20,177 nt of DNA, taken from the IMG/VR virus record IMGVR_UViG_3300029982_000660, positions 1 through 20,177 of that record, one strand, 5' to 3'. Under the pieces are notes generated by a model. It made no database searches and was not told the origin of the DNA. It was given only the letters and a program-made list of their open reading frames with translations. Positions 3,771 through 20,177 of the stretch are shown in pieces (within the stretch, counting starts at the first letter, position 1; each line of letters starts with the position of its first letter). The position numbers and the translations under genes are program-made. The stretch is from a virus.

Positions 3771-5374
3771 TCTGCAAACTCCTTTAATTTCTCAGTCAAT
3801 TTGAGCTGAGATACCAATGTTCTGGTGGTAGTGGCGGCGGCGATGAACAACAACGATCCACACCAGACCTTCAATAAATTGATGGCTTCGGCAGTAACGT
3901 CGGGGTCGGCTGCATTGATGAGACCTGCAACATATCGCAATACCGTAAGCCGGTAAAGATGATCATCGATGGTCTCAGATGGCAACGCAAGAGGCAACAA
4001 CGTGCTTACAGGTCGCGGTGGAACCGTTTGGTTCGGATCACCAGTTTGGCCTATAATATCATCGCTTGTTTGCGATGAATCTGAAGTATCCGCTGTAGGA
4101 TCTGCATCATCGGAAAATGCACCGGTATCAGTTGCATCTGGTGATTTTGGATCATCAGCTGGTGGAGTATCGTCTGGTGTCTCCGGTTCTGGAGTACCAG
4201 GTGGTGTTTTCTTTTTTGTTTTAACTGGTTTGTCAGGCACCTCTGGATCTTCCGGAGGATCTCCTGCGGTAATCTTAGCTTTGGCTGCTTCAGTACTTTC
4301 ATCATAGTTTAGTTTTCGAATAAACTGAAGACCACCTGTAGAAGTTACCTCTTTCAATTGCCGGTAGAGTGCATCATCAGAATCTGAGATTTCAATATTG
4401 GGACACTCGAAACGGTCATCAACGGCTTTCAGAAATGGGATGACATAATTTGTATCACGAATGGTTGTTGCACCTATACCACAGAAATTATGCAGTTGTT
4501 GCATAATCATGCGACGAGGATCTGCCAGACGGGATAAAGTATAGTCAATACCCAGTGCTTGCTGTCGAAAATACATTGCAAGATAATTAAGGAAAGAAAC
4601 ACCTGCTTTATTGTTAGATATCAGATTCCACCCGAGGGATGCTGTTAGTTCAACAGGATCCATAGGAAGAGCCAACATGGCAAGAATCGTAAGATATGAA
4701 GTAAACTCACCAGGTCCCTGAATAAGACCTGGAATATTAAGACTATTGATGAATTTCCAGACAAGGTCCGGGGTAGAAACACAATTGCTGGTATTCAATG
4801 TGACCGGATGATGAATTGGTGTCAGTGTAAATGTCGGTGACGTATACCCTTCAATCGATGTTAAAGTAACACGATAGGGAGTAACATCATTAACGACTGC
4901 AACACGATCATCATAGACAGTACATACAATGGCAAGTATATCATTGATACCAGGATAAACTTTATCTGATACCAAACGACTGCTTACTATCCTTAATGCA
5001 TCGATGAATTCACGTCCTTGCAGATGTACCGTACCATCTGGAAAATAGGTACGAATAAATTCACCAAGTGCACGATCGGTTACTTTTCGTGACTGCCAGG
5101 CAGATCGAATCTCAATCACTACTTTTTTCAGAAGGTCTCGATATATCTGACTGGTCTCGAGGGTCATAAAAATACTGATGTAGAAATACATGACACATTG
5201 GGCAAAGATGTATCGATTGCACTCTTCATCTGTCCAAACCAGATTGGGCACATCAATCAGTCGTACCGAAGGCAGTCCAGCAGTGACCATCGGTTGTGGT
5301 GGCAAAAGCATCTCCATACCAGTCATAGTGGCATGACGACGCAACAATAGAGGTGGGCATTTGGCTATCGACAT
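3767..5374 (-). CDS. Unknown protein with acidic linker, upstream of capsid
   Basis: A 535-residue protein that I do not recognise. ATG at 5372-5374 has AAGGAG 10 nt upstream. Residues 1 to about 355 look globular. About 366-462 is a disordered linker rich in Pro, Asp, Thr and Ser, with a basic patch KTKKK near 385-389. About 463-535 is a helical C-terminal part, including the hydrophobic stretch GSLLFIAAA. The stop overlaps the GTG of the capsid gene by 4 nt, so the two are probably made together. By position it could be a virion, scaffold or assembly partner of the capsid, but no motif proves this. It is the first gene of a minus-strand operon reading from the divergent region at 5375-5560. 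Its leader has a small 7-bp stem (TTCCTTT with AAAGGAA, 5398-5413). Confidence 0.85.
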   Translation of the reverse strand: MSIAKCPPLLLRRHATMTGMEMLLPPQPMVTAGLPSVRLIDVPNLVWTDEECNRYIFAQCVMYFYISIFMTLETSQIYRDLLKKVVIEIRSAWQSRKVTDRALGEFIRTYFPDGTVHLQGREFIDALRIVSSRLVSDKVYPGINDILAIVCTVYDDRVAVVNDVTPYRVTLTSIEGYTSPTFTLTPIHHPVTLNTSNCVSTPDLVWKFINSLNIPGLIQGPGEFTSYLTILAMLALPMDPVELTASLGWNLISNNKAGVSFLNYLAMYFRQQALGIDYTLSRLADPRRMIMQQLHNFCGIGATTIRDTNYVIPFLKAVDDRFECPNIEISDSDDALYRQLKEVTSTGGLQFIRKLNYDESTEAAKAKITAGDPPEDPEVPDKPVKTKKKTPPGTPEPETPDDTPPADDPKSPDATDTGAFSDDADPTADTSDSSQTSDDIIGQTGDPNQTVPPRPVSTLLPLALPSETIDDHLYRLTVLRYVAGLINAADPDVTAEAINLLKVWCGSLLFIAAATTTRTLVSQLKLTEKLKEFAE

Positions 5375-8565: not shown

Positions 8566-9387
8566 TTATCGTTGGCCATGAGTTGTTACAAGCCGTCTCA
8601 GACAAATAACAAAATTATGTTCTACCCTCTGGAGTTCTGTCAGAATAACCCCAAACATATCCAACTGTACACTGGCTGTATGTACCAATTGATACAGAGC
8701 TCGAACTGCAACCTTATCAATAGGTGTGGTCTGAGTTTCAATTGAAGTAACATGTGTATCAATTATTTTTTCAATTGCATCTAATGCAGAACAAACAGTT
8801 TCTACATTCTTAAAAATTGTATCGTATCCAAGAATATGCAGATCAACTGCAATTAACTCATCAAAAGAAGGAATCACACTTCGAAGTGGTACTTCCATTG
8901 TTTTGTTGGCATTGAAAATATCTCTAAGGGTCTTTTCAACATCATTCTTTGATACTTTAGAAATAAGTTTTGTAGTATCTTCTGTTACTGGAAAACGACC
9001 GGCTTGGACTTCACTGAAATAAAATTGAAGAGCTGTTATTGTAGAATTAATATCAAGAGTTGAATATAGAGTTTCAAGGATAGTTGTTGCATGTAGATAT
9101 GTGACCTTCATTCCTGATGGAATGGGTACAGATAGATCCAAATTAAATTGTTGTGTTTTGAAGAACTGATTAATCATGAAGGGATGAGATTCATGATACG
9201 CTAATAATTCAGATCGTTTGAAATTACGATTAAATCCTTTTAAACTAGTTTTGAAATTATTAATGATTCTTGTAAATGTATCAAAGGTTCGAAGAACGAA
9301 CTGATACACTTCAGTTGCATCACTTAATTCAATGGACTCTTCCAGATGTTCAAGTGCAATATACGATACGGGGAGATCGTAGTTCAT
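8566..9387 (-). CDS. Unknown helical protein
   Basis: A 273-residue protein of unknown function. The frame stays open to a TTG at 9411, but ATG at 9385-9387 (MNYDLPVSY) is preceded by GGAG at 9 nt and is the better start. The sequence is mostly amphipathic helices, with repeated Leu/Ile spacing in IEKIIDTHVTSIETQ and the C-terminal VILTELQRVEHNFVICLRR, and has no signal peptide or metal site. Codons are AT-rich like the helicase, unlike the neighbour at 7368. It is divergent from the recombinase-like gene, so it may share a control region with it. A head-interior or assembly protein is possible, but nothing in the sequence demonstrates this. Confidence 0.8.
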   Translation of the reverse strand: MNYDLPVSYIALEHLEESIELSDATEVYQFVLRTFDTFTRIINNFKTSLKGFNRNFKRSELLAYHESHPFMINQFFKTQQFNLDLSVPIPSGMKVTYLHATTILETLYSTLDINSTITALQFYFSEVQAGRFPVTEDTTKLISKVSKNDVEKTLRDIFNANKTMEVPLRSVIPSFDELIAVDLHILGYDTIFKNVETVCSALDAIEKIIDTHVTSIETQTTPIDKVAVRALYQLVHTASVQLDMFGVILTELQRVEHNFVICLRRLVTTHGQR

Positions 9388-9474
9388 TAACAATGACTCC
9401 AGTCTTAACAAAAATGATATCTTGCATTCATAGAATAGAGAAGCATTATTTTTGGAGGTAAATTTAAAATAGAT

Positions 9475-9510
9475 TTGACCTTGGTATGATATGATCGTTT
9501 ATACCAGAAT
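9475..9510. promoter_or_regulatory. Candidate divergent promoter region
   Basis: The gap between the 8566 and 9550 genes has TTGACC (about 9475-9480), a 17-bp spacer and TTTATA, a reasonable sigma70-like promoter reading plus. The spacer holds TGATATGAT, also present in the other divergent gap near 5434. The segment from GGTAT to ATACC is roughly symmetrical, so minus-strand use is also possible. Confidence 0.35.
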
Positions 9511-9549
9511 TAAGGATCTGTCATTTCTTAAAAAGTTCAATACTGTAGT

Positions 9550-11010
9550 ATGTCAATCCCATCATACTCCTCTCTGTATAAAGGAATCTTTTCTGTGAGT
9601 CTTCTACAAACCACCGGATTTCGTGATGCTGGATTTCAACCTTATTTAAATACAGGCACATTACTTGATATTCAAACTGGGGCGTTTGTTCCTGGTGTTC
9701 ATGGCGGTATGGTATTGAATGGCGGATTGAGCACCACCAATGCCGTCATCGGTCGTGAACAAATGTTCAAGTCTACAGAACTATTTTCCTATACCGTTCG
9801 GGCAATGCAGTGGTATCCAAAATCATCATGTCTTGTTTTTGATACAGAATATGCCCAGAAAAAAGATCGATTGATGCATTTTTCTGGATTCACCGATATG
9901 GATGAATTCGATAAACGTATGATTATTACAACACCGGCAGAAGTTACAGCAGAAGATTTCTTTGACCAACTTAAGAAAATGGCTACCTACAAAATTGCCC
10001 ATGCCGATGAGTTTATGGTAGATTCTCCCATCGTGGATCTTCGGACAGGTAAACCATTACGGATGTGGATACCTACTTTTGTTGTCTATGATAGCTGGTC
10101 AAAAATGACCTCTGGTCATGTTCAATCAACCCTGGATTCAAAAGTTCTTGGATCTTCTGATACCAACATGATCTTCATGAAAGATGGCATGATCAAGAAG
10201 ATGATGCTTTCACAATTACCTCGCTTGGCAACAACTGCAGGTATCTACTTCATGTTATCAGCGCATGTTGGTAACAAATATGAACTCAATCCATATGCAC
10301 AAACTCCTAAAGGTCTTCCTAACATGAAGGCTTCTGACAAACTCAAAGAAGTTGGATCGGATTTCAATTTCTTGATGTCAAACAACATCGAAATGCGTAA
10401 AGTGCACGGATTGTTAGATCCAGATAAACATTGTTTATACCCGAGCTTGGGTGGAAGTGATGCAGAACTCTGTGAAGTGACCTCCGTCATGTTACGTGGT
10501 AAAAACAACATGAGTGGAACGACTCTCCCCCTGGTTGTCAGTCAGATGGGTGGAATTCAGAGCGAACTTAGTAATTACCATTATCTACGTGAGAATGGTT
10601 ATTTTGGTTTAATTGGCAACAAGACTACGCACAAACCGGCAATGACGGATGTCAGTATTAGTCGAAATACGGTTCGACAGAAAGTAACGGATCCAAAAGT
10701 TGCTCATGCCATCGAACTACTTGCTCAGTTATGTTACATCCAAAACAACTGGGTGGTTCCATCAACATCTGAAGTTGATTTTCTTATGAAGCCAGAAGAT
10801 CTAGCTGAAAAGCTACTAGGGAGTGACTCCCCAAGTATGACTGATGTTTTGGAGAGTCGTTCCACATGGACATACGATAAGACGAATACCCAGCCATATT
10901 TGTCTCTTTATGATGTGTTGGCTATTGCCCAAGGTGTCTATAAAGCAAAAGGTATTGCACTCTCAGGATTTGGAGTGACAAAACCAGTGAGTTCTAAAAA
11001 AGCAGCTTGA
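9550..11010 (+). CDS. RecA/UvsX-like recombination ATPase
   Basis: A 486-residue P-loop ATPase of the RecA superfamily, most like phage UvsX recombinases that drive strand exchange. The P-loop is GREQMFKST (G68, K74, S75), with Phe where Gly normally precedes Lys. T4 UvsX, from memory, has the same aromatic change (GPSKSFKS). CLVFDTEYAQKKDRL (E100) matches the RecA/UvsX catalytic Glu region, FVVYDSWSKM (D181) is Walker B, and FMLSAHVG near 234-241 matches the strand before the sensor loop. The C-terminal ~150 residues are not recognised and could bind DNA. ATG at 9550 has no good ribosome site; GTG at 9595, 9 nt after AAAGGA and in frame, is a real alternative (471 aa). A second DnaB-like helicase is less likely. 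A hairpin follows the stop. Confidence 0.72.
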   Translation: MSIPSYSSLYKGIFSVSLLQTTGFRDAGFQPYLNTGTLLDIQTGAFVPGVHGGMVLNGGLSTTNAVIGREQMFKSTELFSYTVRAMQWYPKSSCLVFDTEYAQKKDRLMHFSGFTDMDEFDKRMIITTPAEVTAEDFFDQLKKMATYKIAHADEFMVDSPIVDLRTGKPLRMWIPTFVVYDSWSKMTSGHVQSTLDSKVLGSSDTNMIFMKDGMIKKMMLSQLPRLATTAGIYFMLSAHVGNKYELNPYAQTPKGLPNMKASDKLKEVGSDFNFLMSNNIEMRKVHGLLDPDKHCLYPSLGGSDAELCEVTSVMLRGKNNMSGTTLPLVVSQMGGIQSELSNYHYLRENGYFGLIGNKTTHKPAMTDVSISRNTVRQKVTDPKVAHAIELLAQLCYIQNNWVVPSTSEVDFLMKPEDLAEKLLGSDSPSMTDVLESRSTWTYDKTNTQPYLSLYDVLAIAQGVYKAKGIALSGFGVTKPVSSKKAA

Positions 11011-14418: not shown

Positions 14419-15033
14419 TTATGGGATAGGAGCTGGTGGTTCTGGTGCCACCCAGGCACTTCCTACAAGACCAACACCAAGTGCAGTTAGCAAGGCATCA
14501 TCATACAAAGCCACTGCTTCTGCAAATGCTGTAAATTCAGTGGTAGATGGGAATAGGTGAGGGGTTCCCGTAATATCTAACCAATTACGAGTGGATTGAC
14601 CATTGGTAAACTTTCCAGCTGTAGTGATGTAGACTTGTTCACTCGTGATGCGACCGATACTGGTTTGATCCAAGGGATATGTTCCATTAAGAGCAGGAGT
14701 TCCTGTACTTACAATGATCACACCAGCTACAACAGCCGCATTGTAGGCAGTCTGTGCCAGTTGTGCAAGAGTGGGGGTCGTTGGAACAACAGGCCAATCT
14801 CCTACAATAGCAGAAGAAAGTATTGCACTTGTGACAGACAATCCAGGCCGAATCGTCAGTGTATAATCTGTTCGTACATTGACATATGCAATTCCGTTAA
14901 CAACAACAGGACCCAATATGGAGTAGCCTGCGACAAGTACATTGGTGTTAATAAGTGTCACTGGATCCGTGATGTTGTTATAGAAAGCATCTGTTATGAT
15001 AGGTAGCGGCCCATTCCAAAGATAATCTGTCAT
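14419..15033 (-). CDS. DUF4376-like tail-fibre accessory protein
   Basis: A 204-residue protein. The second half has the flow of the DUF4376 type found next to phage tail fibres: GTPALNGTYPLDQTSIGRIT, then a short region ending NWLDITG, then a C-terminal helix EFTAFAEAVALYDDALL. The N-terminal half is beta-rich with several VNV/YVNVR strands and may bind a fibre. ATG at 15031-15033 has AAGAAGG 7 nt upstream, 26 nt after the stop of the hydrolase gene. It is the last gene of the minus-strand tail cluster. Its role is probably fibre assembly or a fibre tip part. The family call is from remembered pattern, not an alignment. Confidence 0.6.
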   Translation of the reverse strand: MTDYLWNGPLPIITDAFYNNITDPVTLINTNVLVAGYSILGPVVVNGIAYVNVRTDYTLTIRPGLSVTSAILSSAIVGDWPVVPTTPTLAQLAQTAYNAAVVAGVIIVSTGTPALNGTYPLDQTSIGRITSEQVYITTAGKFTNGQSTRNWLDITGTPHLFPSTTEFTAFAEAVALYDDALLTALGVGLVGSAWVAPEPPAPIP

Positions 15034-15059: not shown

Positions 15060-16931
15060 TTAATGTAATGATGCATAATATCCAGCAACAATCATAGCAG
15101 CTGCTTGTGCACTTACAGCCATTTCAAAGTTAGATCCACCCTGATGTGCTTTGAACCATAGTCCTTGACAGGGTCCTTCCCAGGATCCACCATAGGTTCC
15201 ATTTGCACACCTAGCATTCAGAGCGGCTGCCCATGCTGTTGTTACTAAAGAGGTTTTATCCAGTTGCGTTCCTGCTGTACCCGTCAACCGAGGGATAACT
15301 TCATGTGCATAATAATAGACTGCGAATGCATTATCACTCGCATCTCGATCATTGAGAACGATATTGGTAGAACTCACCATTTCGTGACTGCGCATCCCAG
15401 TTGCAACCTGATTGAGACGTGTTAAATATGCGGTATTTCCAGTGATGGCATAAAGCCGAGATTCCAATACGGCATATGCCATATTGGCTTCAAGCATAGT
15501 GACGGATCCTGCTTCATAGATACCATAGGGTTGATTTGTAGATTGTGAAATACCATATGGTGCAGTTCCATTTGGTTGGGTATCCATCCACAACAACCCA
15601 TCAGTTGGATATATATAAGACCCAGCAGGGAGTCCAACTGTTGAAGAAGTTAGCACAATGCTACCCGTGGTGGGTGTCCCGACAGCAGTAACAGTAAGAT
15701 GGTTTCCAACAGGTGTAAATATAGAAATTGTGGGTCCGGGTGCCACTGCTGAAATTCCAGAAGTGACAATAGCTGGTGTGGTATTAATCAGAGTCACCAA
15801 ACTTGCTGCAATTGTAGCTATTGTATCTGAACCTGTTTCTGTATAAGTTAAGGTTACTGGAGATCCACTAATACAGGTACATGTAAGTGTCACGGATGCT
15901 GTATTGCCTGTTGTAATACTTGCACCATATGGTAAGTTGACAGTTACAAGAGAGATTGCTTGTGCTGAGACAGCCTGTCCATTTCGAAAAAGAGCTGCAG
16001 TTAACCACACCTCTTCTTGTTCTGCTTTAATGAGATATGATGTATCCGATGCACCAGCAGAAACTGTATCATTATAATACTGAATAAGATCCACTGCATA
16101 TTGAACTTGGTATGCCGTCTTTCCAGTTTTGGTATCATCATACCAAAGACCACCACCAAGAGCATTATCTGCCCATCGTGTCCATGCACAATCCAATATA
16201 CCTTTGGCATAGGTCAATGCTGTTGGATCTAATGTAGCTTCATACAACATCAACAAACCACCGGTAGTCCACGCTGCATCGTCCTGAGCAGCAGCTGTAG
16301 CAGAGGCCTGACACTGTTGCATTTGGGTTACTGTATATGTGGCATTGACCCATGCCCATTGTTGTTGTAGTTTTTGATAAGCGACAGGGGATCCTGACGT
16401 TTTCCACCAACTATATGCCACATTGATACTTTGTGATGTTGTCCACATGCGATCTGCAAGATATCCACCACCAGGATTCAGAATTGTCCATTCAGCTGCA
16501 GGAGGACTTGCATAAATAACACTAGCTGTGCTTCCTCCAAGGGAAGGTGTATAGTTAGTTGAATTAATACCTGTTAGTGCAAATGTTGTATTGGTCAGAA
16601 CTGTTATGGTGTAGGGACCACCATTAATTTGAGACATTCCTGTTTCATTTGTAATCCAAACGGTCTGACCTGTTTGATATCCATTGTCAAAGCTGGTTGT
16701 TACAACTGCAGGATTTGCCTGTGTTATATTTGTAATAATAGAAGTTGATGGTTGAAATGTAGTAGCGAGTATGTCAAATGTACCAGTATTTGTACCCTGA
16801 AACCAAAACCAAGATACTGTGTCATCAAATGCGCGTTGTGCGAGACTTGAGAGAGATAGCGCAACAAGAGGTTGCGCCACTGCTGAGATCGAAATACATA
16901 AATAAAACAGAAGTATCCTAATAATTGACAT
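15060..16931 (-). CDS. Exported GH76-like glycosidase with two inserted tail domains
   Basis: A 623-residue protein with a Sec-type signal peptide: an 'R' then a hydrophobic run (ILLFYLCISISAVA) with an AVA cleavage site near residue 19. About 27-54 looks like the first helix of an alpha/alpha barrel. About 65-140 is an FCCH-like phage domain (ITQANPAVVTTSFDNGYQ to STNYTPS). About 145-315 has GH76 features: AQDDAAW with the paired catalytic Asp (D217, D218), then LMLYEATLDPTALTYAKGIL, GGGLWYDD and KTAYQ. About 321-432 is a beta-rich domain with YTETGSDTIATIAASL, common in phage tails. From about 443 the helical fold resumes (DGLLWMDTQ, YEAGSVTMLEANMAYAVLE). GH76 enzymes cut alpha-1,6-mannans. 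The start overlaps the preceding gene by 14 nt. The hydrolase role is inferred; a related six-hairpin glycosidase is possible. Confidence 0.65.
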   Translation of the reverse strand: MSIIRILLFYLCISISAVAQPLVALSLSSLAQRAFDDTVSWFWFQGTNTGTFDILATTFQPSTSIITNITQANPAVVTTSFDNGYQTGQTVWITNETGMSQINGGPYTITVLTNTTFALTGINSTNYTPSLGGSTASVIYASPPAAEWTILNPGGGYLADRMWTTSQSINVAYSWWKTSGSPVAYQKLQQQWAWVNATYTVTQMQQCQASATAAAQDDAAWTTGGLLMLYEATLDPTALTYAKGILDCAWTRWADNALGGGLWYDDTKTGKTAYQVQYAVDLIQYYNDTVSAGASDTSYLIKAEQEEVWLTAALFRNGQAVSAQAISLVTVNLPYGASITTGNTASVTLTCTCISGSPVTLTYTETGSDTIATIAASLVTLINTTPAIVTSGISAVAPGPTISIFTPVGNHLTVTAVGTPTTGSIVLTSSTVGLPAGSYIYPTDGLLWMDTQPNGTAPYGISQSTNQPYGIYEAGSVTMLEANMAYAVLESRLYAITGNTAYLTRLNQVATGMRSHEMVSSTNIVLNDRDASDNAFAVYYYAHEVIPRLTGTAGTQLDKTSLVTTAWAAALNARCANGTYGGSWEGPCQGLWFKAHQGGSNFEMAVSAQAAAMIVAGYYASLH

Positions 16932-18399
16932 TTATTTTTACCCCAGCAGGGGCAGCCGTGGTGTCAGTGTCACCATCCGCACCGGTTCCGCAGGCTGCAA
17001 GCCCAGAATTTACATAAGCTCCTCGTGCAAGTGCCCAAGAAAAACGAGTTCCTGCAGGAATGCGATATGAAGAATCGAGGACTTGACCATTTCCACCTGA
17101 ACTAGTTGGCCAGGTTCCATGGGCGCAATTGGGAGTGCCATTAAAGTCATAGGTTCTCCAATAAAAATCAGATGTAGTATAATTTTCAATATCAAGTCCA
17201 CAGAATTGTTGATTGCCACCCGATGCCACTGAGAGAGCATTAACGCCAGCTGTTGTATTTCCAGACAAGTGCCACCAATGGGGACATCCTCCACTTGAAG
17301 AAAACGTGTCAACGGATAAAACAACACACGTTGCTACGCAATTCGTCCGAAAACTAGTATATCCAGTAATTACAGCTCCTGTAGACAAACCACTCAGTTG
17401 CCATTCAAAATAGGTTTCGGATACAGCACACTGAAATGCACCAGAATAGTTACCAACTGTACTTATCTGAATACCAGAAATACCACGAAAACATCCAGGA
17501 GATACTGAATGCCAAGTACCAGGCTGACCACTTTCTGATACGACCGGAGTAAGCGTAACACTTCCACTTGTAACTGTAATATCAATGTTTGCTTCACGAT
17601 ATCCATAGTTACTTGCGTTGACATATCCAACAGCAGTGGTTCCGGATGATAAAGAAAATGGACTGGTGCTGGGTGATGTAATGGCAAAAGAACAGGGGGC
17701 AGAGGCACTGACTACGACACCATTACAGACAAGAGCAGTATAAAGAGGAGTAGATGAAGACGATCCGCCTGTCATACTCTGTAATTGTGTTTGTACCCCT
17801 GTTATATTTGAATAGACACCTTTGATTGCAGAAATGATAGAAGAACTACCAGTTCCAGTATATGTTGAATCTGCAGGTGTTCCAACTCCTGAAACAAGAG
17901 TAGTATTTTGTGTTGTGATAGTAGAAAGATTACCACCCGTTTCTAATGCCGCTCCCGTTGGAAGCGGTAATGTTGCAACACTAACAGGTTGTGTGGGTTG
18001 CCAAAAAGTACCAGAGACAGAGAGGGTGCCTGATAGTTTAGTGTAGATGCCAGAAAGCCACCCTCGAATCCCACTCCCTCCTGGGAGTTGAGTTGCACTC
18101 GTTATATCACTTCCGTTTGCTGTGGCAATAGAAGCAAGATTTCCACCTGCTTCTTGTGCAGCACCGGATGGTAGTGGTAATGATGTTGTTGAAAACGATA
18201 ACGTCGTTCCTAGTTTTTGATAGAGTCCCTTTAATACTGAAATGACAGAGGTGGTACCAGATCCTGTATATGCTGTATCTGATATAGTACCAATAGCAGT
18301 AATACCACTTACCTGTGTAGCATTACCTGGAGTTCCTTGTCCATAAACAAGAGTTGTTGAAAGTAACAGCACCATAAGACACTGTAAAAAATACTTCAT
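16918..18399 (-). CDS. Exported cysteine-rich tail-fibre-like protein
   Basis: A 493-residue protein beginning with a clear Sec signal peptide (MKYF, then LMVLLLSTTLVYG, cleavage near residue 20). About 34-200 is built of repeats shared with the next gene upstream: LPLPSGAA and LPLPTGAA with GGNL, GIRGWLSGIYTKL, and TYTGTGSSSIISAIKGVY. About 205-493 is beta-rich and unrecognised, with roughly nine or ten cysteines (for example NCVATC), suggesting disulfides formed outside the cytoplasm. ATG at 18397-18399 has AGGAGG 9 nt upstream, and that site overlaps the stop of the upstream gene. It overlaps the hydrolase gene by 14 nt. A fibre or adhesin is likely from the repeats, but the signal peptide is unexpected for a virion part assembled in the cytoplasm. 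Confidence 0.75.
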   Translation of the reverse strand: MKYFLQCLMVLLLSTTLVYGQGTPGNATQVSGITAIGTISDTAYTGSGTTSVISVLKGLYQKLGTTLSFSTTSLPLPSGAAQEAGGNLASIATANGSDITSATQLPGGSGIRGWLSGIYTKLSGTLSVSGTFWQPTQPVSVATLPLPTGAALETGGNLSTITTQNTTLVSGVGTPADSTYTGTGSSSIISAIKGVYSNITGVQTQLQSMTGGSSSSTPLYTALVCNGVVVSASAPCSFAITSPSTSPFSLSSGTTAVGYVNASNYGYREANIDITVTSGSVTLTPVVSESGQPGTWHSVSPGCFRGISGIQISTVGNYSGAFQCAVSETYFEWQLSGLSTGAVITGYTSFRTNCVATCVVLSVDTFSSSGGCPHWWHLSGNTTAGVNALSVASGGNQQFCGLDIENYTTSDFYWRTYDFNGTPNCAHGTWPTSSGGNGQVLDSSYRIPAGTRFSWALARGAYVNSGLAACGTGADGDTDTTAAPAGVKINVNY

Positions 18400-18962
18400 G
18401 ATAGTTAACCTCCTGCAATCATAAGTTGGACAGACCCGGAATCTGAAATTGCACTAATTGCTGCTGTTGGTATAGCGATTGCACCACCAAATACAAATTC
18501 GCCTTCTCCTGCCCAGATAGGAATTCCAGTACCAATAACAGCAGGTCCTCCTGTAACATTAAGATATATGTTTGCAGTTCCACCGGATGGAAGAGAAAGA
18601 ATTAAAGATTCTGTTATGAATCCAGCTGCTACAATTTGAGTTGAAGTGGTACCTACTGCAATACTTTCAGAGATTGTGTATGTGAGAGGTGTTGCTTTGG
18701 TAGCCAATTTGCTATTTAACAAACCAATAACAGATTTTAACAGGGACACAATTGTTCCTGCACCAGTTCCAGAGTAACTGGTATCTTCTGGTGTACCAGT
18801 TGCAGTTGCAATTAGTATTGTCTGTGCAGTAGTTGTTGCAAGATTGCCTCCGGATTCAACAGCGGCTCCCGTCGGAAGTGGCAATGTAGTGACACTTACC
18901 GATAACGTCCCATTGAGTTTAGCATAGATACCAGAAAGCCAGCCACGAACACCAACACCACC
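17800..18962 (-). repeat. Tail-type sequence module repeated across two genes
   Basis: One protein module occurs three times in whole or part. It occurs once in the 212-aa gene (residues about 28-110, DNA about 18714-18962) and twice in the 493-aa gene (residues about 34-92 and 105-197, DNA about 17800-18300). Marker strings are RGWLSGIYxKLxGTLSVS, LPLPxGAAxExGGNL and DTxYxGxG. The pattern suggests module duplication within a tail-fibre cluster. Confidence 0.7.
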
Positions 18963-19043
18963 AGTTGGTTCAATGATGCCTGTGGCATCTACTCCTTCTT
19001 CAGGTGTTAATGAATCAGGACTTCCAAATACATCCCTGCCCAT
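18405..19043 (-). CDS. Tail/baseplate-type repeat protein
   Basis: A 212-residue protein without a signal peptide. Residues about 28-110 carry the repeat module found twice in the following gene (GVRGWLSGIYAKLNGTLSVS, LPLPTGAAVESGGNL, DTSYSGTG). Residues about 115-212 are beta-rich with alternating hydrophobic residues and end in VQLMIAGG. ATG at 19041-19043 has AAAGGA 8 nt upstream. It follows a 34-bp palindrome that separates it from the Hint-domain gene, and is 5 nt from the start of the 493-aa gene. 'LPLPTGAA' repeats are frequent in phage tail proteins, so a small virion fibre or decoration protein is the likely role. The exact place in the virion is unknown. Confidence 0.7.
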   Translation of the reverse strand: MGRDVFGSPDSLTPEEGVDATGIIEPTGGVGVRGWLSGIYAKLNGTLSVSVTTLPLPTGAAVESGGNLATTTAQTILIATATGTPEDTSYSGTGAGTIVSLLKSVIGLLNSKLATKATPLTYTISESIAVGTTSTQIVAAGFITESLILSLPSGGTANIYLNVTGGPAVIGTGIPIWAGEGEFVFGGAIAIPTAAISAISDSGSVQLMIAGG

Positions 19044-19082
19044 GTCAAATATCCTTTACAGTAAGTCTTTCTATAAGATGGC

Positions 19083-19116
19083 CGATGTCATCACGCAATA
19101 TTGCGTGATGACATCG
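19083..19116. terminator. 34-bp perfect palindrome
   Basis: CGATGTCATCACGCAAT (19083-19099) is followed directly by its reverse complement (19100-19116). It lies 9 nt past the stop of the Hint-domain gene on the minus strand and about 40 nt before the next start. No U-tract follows. It is the longest perfect palindrome in the window. Confidence 0.65.
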
Positions 19117-19125
19117 AACAGAAAC

Positions 19126-20177
19126 TTAAACTTCTTTTTTAGTCCACGTCGAGTAATCAAAATCAACTTCAGTTGGCCATCCGGTGACTGCATATCCGTT
19201 TACAGTATACGTATGACTTCCAGCTACAACCAAGTTATAAAGCTTGGTCTCTGGCGGCATACGATATTGTGTAAACGTTTCTACCATCTTAGGTCCATTC
19301 AGAGTCTGTAACACGATACCTTGTGTAAGGGTATTTATCATACCTTTAGAAAGACCTGTGTTAGTCCACATCTCTATAGAGCCATCCTGGAGGATAACTG
19401 GGAAATCGTGTCCCCACTCTTTATAAATGGCATCAACTTCTGGACTATAAAACTTGCGGTCTGGCGAGATGTGTGGATGATCGTCTGAGGTATCGTGTTC
19501 GTTGTTAATATTGTACATGTTGCGATCACCCAGGACAACAAAGTCCAACCCACGGATCGTATTGAGTTCTCCAAATGCTCCCACAACAGTATCCCCGGGA
19601 AGAACTGTCTCAATGGGTTTGAATGAACCATCGCCCATTTTAACAGGAGATCCTGCAAGAAAACATGAACCTCCAGGCTCAAAGTAAAATGGCGTATCTG
19701 TGGGAGTTGGAGTAGGAGTTGGCGTATCTGTGGAAGTTGGAGTAGGAGTTGGCGTAGCTGTGGGAGTTGGAGTAGGAGTTGAGGTAGAAGTAGCTGTGGG
19801 AGTCGGAGTAGTAGTTGAGGTAGAAGTAGGTGTCGGAGTTGGCGTTGAGGTGGAAGTTGTGGTGGGAGTTGGTGTCGGAGTGGGTGTTAGTGCATAATGA
19901 GTAAGCGTAGCATTAAGTGCATCGATTGTTTCATAATTGGCAAGATTTGCAGTAAGTATTGCAACCTGTGTCGTAAGTGCAGCAACTTGTGATGTCATAC
20001 TAACAATAGCATTCAGATATATAACAACTGGAAGATTAACATACAGAGTACTACCATCTCCGATTTTAAGAGCAGTTGTATCTGTTGCATATACGACCAG
20101 ACCGGCTGGAATTGGAATGGTAATAGTATTCCAAACGGTCTGCGTACCACCCACAAATTGTGTGATTGCATCGATCA
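19126..20177 (-). CDS. Tail-fibre-like protein with C-terminal Hint domain (partial)
   Basis: The frame stays open to the right edge (reading I-D-A-I-T-Q-F before the GTG at 20154), so the N-terminus is missing. Counting from that GTG, about 15-42 contains DTTALKIGDGSTLYVNLPV, like the N-terminal 'KIGDGST' motif of phage fibres and Mtd. About 45-85 is a coiled coil with VAALTTQVAILTANLANY. About 90-155 is a Thr-Pro repeat linker. About 162-330 is a Hint (hedgehog/intein) domain: GGSCFLAGSPVKMGDGSFKP with C164 as candidate nucleophile, DDHPHISPDRKF as block-B-like (H226), and YNLVVAGSHTYTVNGYAV as block F. The usual terminal His-Asn is replaced by VTG and only about 18 residues follow, so this is not a complete splicing intein. 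It may cleave itself or attach to another nucleophile. Confidence 0.78.
   Translation of the reverse strand, partial: IDAITQFVGGTQTVWNTITIPIPAGLVVYATDTTALKIGDGSTLYVNLPVVIYLNAIVSMTSQVAALTTQVAILTANLANYETIDALNATLTHYALTPTPTPTPTTTSTSTPTPTPTSTSTTTPTPTATSTSTPTPTPTATPTPTPTSTDTPTPTPTPTDTPFYFEPGGSCFLAGSPVKMGDGSFKPIETVLPGDTVVGAFGELNTIRGLDFVVLGDRNMYNINNEHDTSDDHPHISPDRKFYSPEVDAIYKEWGHDFPVILQDGSIEMWTNTGLSKGMINTLTQGIVLQTLNGPKMVETFTQYRMPPETKLYNLVVAGSHTYTVNGYAVTGWPTEVDFDYSTWTKKEV
19690..19884 (-). repeat. Thr-Pro-coding minisatellite
   Basis: Short imperfect repeats of 6-nt units coding for Thr-Pro and Thr-Ser form a linker of about 65 residues between the coiled coil and the Hint domain. Slippage could change linker length. 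On the plus strand the same DNA gives a Val-Gly frame that is only a shadow. Confidence 0.85.

Follow-up and report, generated by a model that had tools for sequence, protein, structure and literature searches.

The gene at positions 15060–16931 (minus strand) of the window, by which we mean the whole 20,177-base virus record analysed here, encodes a 623-aa predicted (α/α)6-barrel glycosidase of the GH76 type that is interrupted by an FCCH domain and by a domain predicted to be strand-rich. The open reading frame (ORF) starts with ATG and has no internal stops, the GH76-related barrel is interrupted twice, an insert-free relative models as an (α/α)6 fold, and a pair of Asp residues lies in the catalytic column of GH76. 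Promoter and terminator scans around the gene stayed at chance level. We consider it probable that a phiKZ-like phage here encodes a divergent retaining endo-glycosidase of the GH76 type, which would cut an alpha-linked glycan, possibly one with mannose in it, in the host envelope or the surrounding slime. The depolymerase role and the mannan-like substrate of the initial annotation are putative. The record is a fragment of a larger phage genome. A Pfam scan placed its major capsid protein with the phiKZ capsid family (E 1.7e-16), and its helicase is 25–27% identical to helicases of 265–279-kb phages (best 10 of 264 records), which together indicate that the window derives from a large, phiKZ-like phage; tblastn of the capsid protein against the 'phages' collection gave no match.

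Reading from the N terminus, all on the minus strand, the enzyme begins with a signal-peptide-like segment (residues 1–19, positions 16875–16931; A17-V18-A19 before Q20). Barrel piece I (residues 20–56, 16764–16874) is followed by the first insert, an FCCH domain (residues about 57–140, 16512–16763), and the barrel resumes with piece II (residues 141–318, 15978–16511), which carries the putative nucleophile and acid/base D217-D218 (16278–16283) and the match to the GH76 profile. A second insert, predicted to be strand-rich (residues about 319–438, 15618–15977), precedes barrel piece III (residues 439–623, 15063–15617).

We regard as decisive for the split barrel a 433-aa relative that lacks both inserts, encoded in L052, which belongs to a virus contig of 29,482 bases and turned up in a DNA-level scan for the QDDAAW motif (58 stretches). 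The two enzymes are 51% identical over aligned columns, with 59% identity over window residues 441–623 and 46% over 113–322. About 12 residues stand in place of the middle domain in the relative, and its N-terminal region aligns directly with window residues 26–56, leaving the FCCH domain out (relative residues about 33–65 pair with barrel piece I). L052 comes from a different kind of phage, with ERF recombinase, DUF927 and DNA primase/helicase matches, so the family exists with and without inserts in unrelated phages. Among 106 loci screened, the only carriers were L052 and a sister contig of the window (99%); this count is a lower bound, because the scans with family patterns, which gave 58 and 33 stretches, require short exact motifs. 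Scanning viral contigs for a GH76 pattern gave 77 stretches and no relative, and two scans of genome contigs found none either. L052 also encodes two neighbouring Asp/Arg beta-hydroxylase-like ORFs (9027–9734 and 10119–10589), an ORF with weak likeness to sulfotransferases (9581–10144) and a GARS-like protein of the ATP-grasp type (3792–5102).

Kinship with GH76 emerged once the inserts were set aside. The whole protein, searched against Pfam, PHROGs, NCBIfam and the PDB, returned FCCH and weak chance matches and no GH76, and its C-terminal part alone matched nothing in the PDB. The core with both inserts excised matched Pfam GH76 (PF03663) colinearly over profile positions 34–339, nearly the whole profile, at 6.8 bits and E 5.5, which is not significant alone and falls short of the gathering score of 25.9. 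Against a custom GH76 HMM, made from ten GH76 proteins of plasmid records (10 of 20 records matched by a GH76 consensus), the core scored 27.3 bits and the best of 200 shuffles 5.8. The HMM search against GH76 suggested in the initial annotation scored above shuffles with the custom profile and below the cut-off with the Pfam one. In hhalign comparisons with GH76, the core reached a probability of 94.2, the full protein 67.6 and 100 shuffles at most 2.0. Removing only the middle domain gave 93.9, with an alignment running across the junction, whereas removing only FCCH gave 67.9. The rise from 67.6 to 93.9 directly supports the middle insertion; the test says nothing on the FCCH insertion because the alignment begins after that domain. 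Together with the insert-free relative in an unrelated phage, these scores bear out the earlier proposal, made from the letters of the window, of a barrel split twice.

The relative itself gave 55.0 bits against the custom HMM and 96.9 in hhalign, and no match to Pfam GH76. Its phmmer search of the whole PDB at E up to 10 returned two entries, both GH76 (E 0.04 and 0.59), and its sole match among 72,556 plasmid records was a GH76 protein (E 0.01); a two-row profile of the family reached GH76 in the PDB only at E 2.9. GH76 folds are (α/α)6 with low mutual identity, as described in an excerpt of PMC4321491. We therefore speak of a GH76-like label and not of Pfam membership, since the cut-off was missed and four of twelve GH76-invariant positions are lost; the enzyme would represent a divergent GH76-like branch. 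With the GH76 alpha-1,6-mannanases (BcGH76/Aman6, Salegentibacter GH76A and Lin0763) it shares the (α/α)6 barrel, the adjacent catalytic Asp pair, the Gly-Gly-aromatic motif and a conserved Trp and Phe. It differs from them in sequence (about 12–17% identity by structure comparison), in the loss on the phage side of YN of YNxG, in its two large inserts, in its score under the Pfam cut-off and in being phage-encoded beside fibre genes. Nine phage-collection records matched the GH76 consensus (six 'Bacteriophage sp.' from faeces and three short Listeria phage records) and may be host DNA. Searches of one open-access library found no GH76 phage depolymerase, no title on phage GH76 for the two terms combined, and off-topic titles only for a six-hairpin glycosidase in phage tails.

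The window protein alone, modelled from its single sequence with AlphaFold2, gave a model too poor for use (pLDDT 34); the fold search proposed earlier was run on a model of the relative. The relative's model, built on a three-row alignment in which two rows are near-identical, is of low confidence (mean pLDDT 48.8, pTM 0.58). Its barrel region has twelve main helices, the number that six hairpins would give (leaving aside the signal-like helix and two further short helices), and D141-D142 stand at a helix start. Foldseek against the PDB put GH76 structures in rows 1–24 of the best 50 (best E 4.8e-5; six matches at E up to 0.001). VIA-align, a re-examination of Foldseek's own list, put them in rows 1–19 of the best 50, with a best Z of 17.6 over 268 residues at 4.4 Å. 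The predicted fold of the insert-free relative is thus an (α/α)6 barrel closest to GH76 structures, and here rank order weighs more than Z, since helical folds reach middling Z easily. Against BFVD, a set of predicted viral structures, the model gave 203 matches at E up to 10 and none at E up to 0.001 (best 0.031). With the profile and hhalign scores above shuffles, these results uphold the earlier assignment to an alpha/alpha barrel of the GH76 type. Some other six-hairpin enzyme, such as an AGE-type epimerase, a GH88/GH105 unsaturated uronyl hydrolase or a lyase, seems very unlikely: in VIA-align cellobiose 2-epimerase, the next family after GH76 (Z 15.2), and GH105/unsaturated glucuronyl hydrolase (14 to 15) follow close behind, but GH76 occupies the top rows of both structural searches and is the only six-hairpin family in the core's Pfam scan and the relative's PDB sequence searches at E up to 10.

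D217 and D218 of the window enzyme, the paired Asp already singled out from the sequence, and D141-D142 of the relative align with the DD of all ten GH76 sequences (10/10). In BcGH76 the corresponding residues, Asp124 and Asp125, are the nucleophile and the acid/base, according to the portion of PMC8362039 consulted. By this alignment, Asp217 would be the nucleophile and Asp218 the acid/base, and the pair would lie in the substrate cleft. Twelve positions are invariant in nine GH76 proteins (start Met omitted), and eight of them, DD included, are kept in both phage proteins. The four changed ones include the Tyr-Asn of YNxG, which is Y472/E473 in the window enzyme and A/L in the relative; the others are W, replaced by Y264, and A, replaced by L506 or M. 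Such losses are what a catalytically altered or dead GH76 fold, used for glycan binding, might display. We think this improbable, given that both catalytic-column Asp, G260, G261 and W309 have been kept in two proteins as far apart as 51% identity.

The initial annotation had called both inserts phage tail domains, which fits the first and found no backing for the second. Residues 73–126 match E1_FCCH (PF16190) at E 1.5e-6, with 28.6 bits slightly under the cut-off of 29.5, and FCCH-bearing UBA6/UBA1 chains in the PDB match the first insert (phmmer, best E 2.3e-5). The enzyme matches 35 of 50,697 phage records; in all 20 of those listed the match covers the FCCH part, and the genes beneath encode baseplate, tail tubular, stabilisation, FCCH-named, chitin-binding-named or hypothetical proteins. 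One retrieved FCCH-domain ORF is a PHROG tail protein (E 3.5e-150). Because these matches lie under phage structural genes, we infer that FCCH is here a phage structural module rather than a sign of ubiquitin chemistry. FCCH proteins such as those of Vibrio phage 1.021 and Pelagibacter phage HTVC010P share the domain at 34–49% identity among the matches listed; there it sits within tail, baseplate or hypothetical proteins, whereas in the window enzyme it interrupts a glycosidase barrel. A search on FCCH and phage tails in one open-access library found no title on phage tails.

The second insert matched no Pfam family and nothing significant among phage proteins (best E 2). Strands were predicted in it by the same low-confidence single-sequence AlphaFold2 model (pLDDT 34). 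Resemblances to a baseplate J protein (E 2) and to a 212-aa neighbour (blastp E 0.038, phmmer E 0.57) were dismissed as chance.

The sister contig, L014, is 99.9% identical to the window across 12,139 nt. The two enzyme copies differ by four amino acids and one synonymous change, numbers too small for a test; two of the four amino-acid differences lie in the second insert (410 and 411) and one adjoins it (440). Window positions 19058–20177 and L014 positions 1–1489 display a tail-fibre swap between these near-identical phages, in which a common fibre N terminus (152 nt, 96.7%) leads into very different fibre bodies: TP repeats and a Hint-like end in the window, GEWTAG repeats and GPMGPG in L014, which also has its own 187-aa partner gene. 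The fibre-like protein of the window (19126–20154) starts like Mtd_N, continues with a long Thr-Pro repeat and ends in a Hint-like domain (Hom_end_hint, E 2.2e-4, under cut-off); it is a possible self-processing tail fibre.

The gene upstream of the enzyme (16918–18399, minus strand) overlaps it by 14 nt and encodes a 493-aa partner with 11 Cys and a signal-peptide-like N terminus. In L052 the corresponding gene pair overlaps by 4 nt. The upstream neighbours of the two enzymes have no homology to each other, and that of the relative matches a PHROG tail fibre (E 2.1e-7). The N-terminal part of the window partner is paralogous to the adjoining 18405–19043 (47% over 114 aa, with repeated LPLP-type motifs in the pair), and only the longer of the two paralogues has a signal-peptide-like start and many Cys. 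Downstream of the enzyme, a 204-aa gene (14419–15033, minus strand; DUF4376 at E 0.0027, under cut-off) has 83% DNA identity over 372 columns to L014 1059–1429. Its paralogue stands directly after the alternative tail fibre of L014, which ties the enzyme locus to fibres.

This setting invites the reading of a virion-mounted depolymerase, a component of the tail fibre or tailspike that would degrade capsule or slime as the phage enters, with FCCH as the docking domain. The enzyme gene sits between fibre-like genes, the relative's neighbour matches a tail fibre, tail and baseplate proteins of phages often contain FCCH, and the downstream gene has its paralogue behind an alternative fibre. We nevertheless hold this reading to be possible and not probable, because the signal-peptide-like starts and conserved Cys in both phages are ill-suited to cytoplasmic virion assembly, and the Pfam and PHROG scans revealed no virion-anchoring N domain on the enzyme. 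In both phages, enzyme and upstream partner start with signal-peptide-like segments, as judged by scripted hydropathy and the −3/−1 rule, a heuristic rather than a trained predictor. A mean hydropathy above 2.5 over ten residues near the N terminus occurred in 4 of the 14 window genes examined (enzyme, partner, helicase and a 109-aa ORF; the helicase stretch is without a −3/−1 site) and, among 13 genes of L052, only in the enzyme/partner pair. Four Cys are common to both enzymes (C207, C248, C575 and C588). The signal-peptide-like starts count against a depolymerase that is simply mounted on the tail. The fibre context points one way and the export signs another, and we lean slightly towards export. 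The phage endolysin Lys44, which is Sec-exported, is likewise a phage enzyme with a signal peptide, in the portion of PMC6116005 consulted; Lys44 is a cell-wall endolysin, and the window enzyme has a GH76-type barrel instead.

A signal-peptide-like start would also suit a host-derived auxiliary metabolic gene, degrading environmental polysaccharide for the cell rather than serving infection. Soil viruses encode an active GH5 endomannanase and an active GH75 chitosanase, as excerpts of PMC6786970 and PMC9485262 report. This origin is nonetheless unlikely, considering that the gene belongs to a fibre cassette, that its neighbour is fibre-like in each of two unrelated phages, and that no close cellular relative was found in genome contigs or plasmid records. 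The soil-virus GH75 chitosanase V-Csn is also a phage glycosidase, and some viral members have an inserted domain beside the cleft (PMC9485262, in part); it belongs to another family and fold, and the same excerpt mentions no tail-fibre context.

On the favoured reading, a GH76-type glycosidase of the phage, Asp217 as nucleophile and Asp218 as acid/base would attack the glycan chain. Both inserts probably lie in loops, where they would add binding or attachment and leave the barrel unbroken, and the enzyme gene is likely to be translated together with its upstream partner. In the course of infection the two proteins might then cross the inner membrane via Sec and, working from the side of the infected cell, remove or loosen glycan at the surface; these last steps are less sure, with mounting on the tail as the main alternative to Sec export.

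Phage glycan-cutting enzymes are mostly beta-helical. The window enzyme may share with beta-helical tailspike depolymerases the role of cleaving glycans by a phage protein encoded near tail genes; its fold is a different one, and the signal-peptide-like start is its own feature. If active, it would add an (α/α)6 GH76-type fold to this mostly beta-helical set. It would also be a catalytic barrel able to take up two inserted domains, with a natural insert-free form to compare it with directly, and it would raise the question of why genes of a phage fibre cassette should carry export signals. One speculative and rather doubtful reading is that horizontal exchange has given unrelated phages a common enzyme, tagged for export, at the tail-fibre locus. 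The fibre-like protein and the GH76-type barrel would both leave by the host's Sec system and alter the host surface from the side of the infected cell, and domain insertions accepted by the barrel would retune where it binds. Were this true, the locus would represent an exported depolymerase module of jumbo phages that is not beta-helical.
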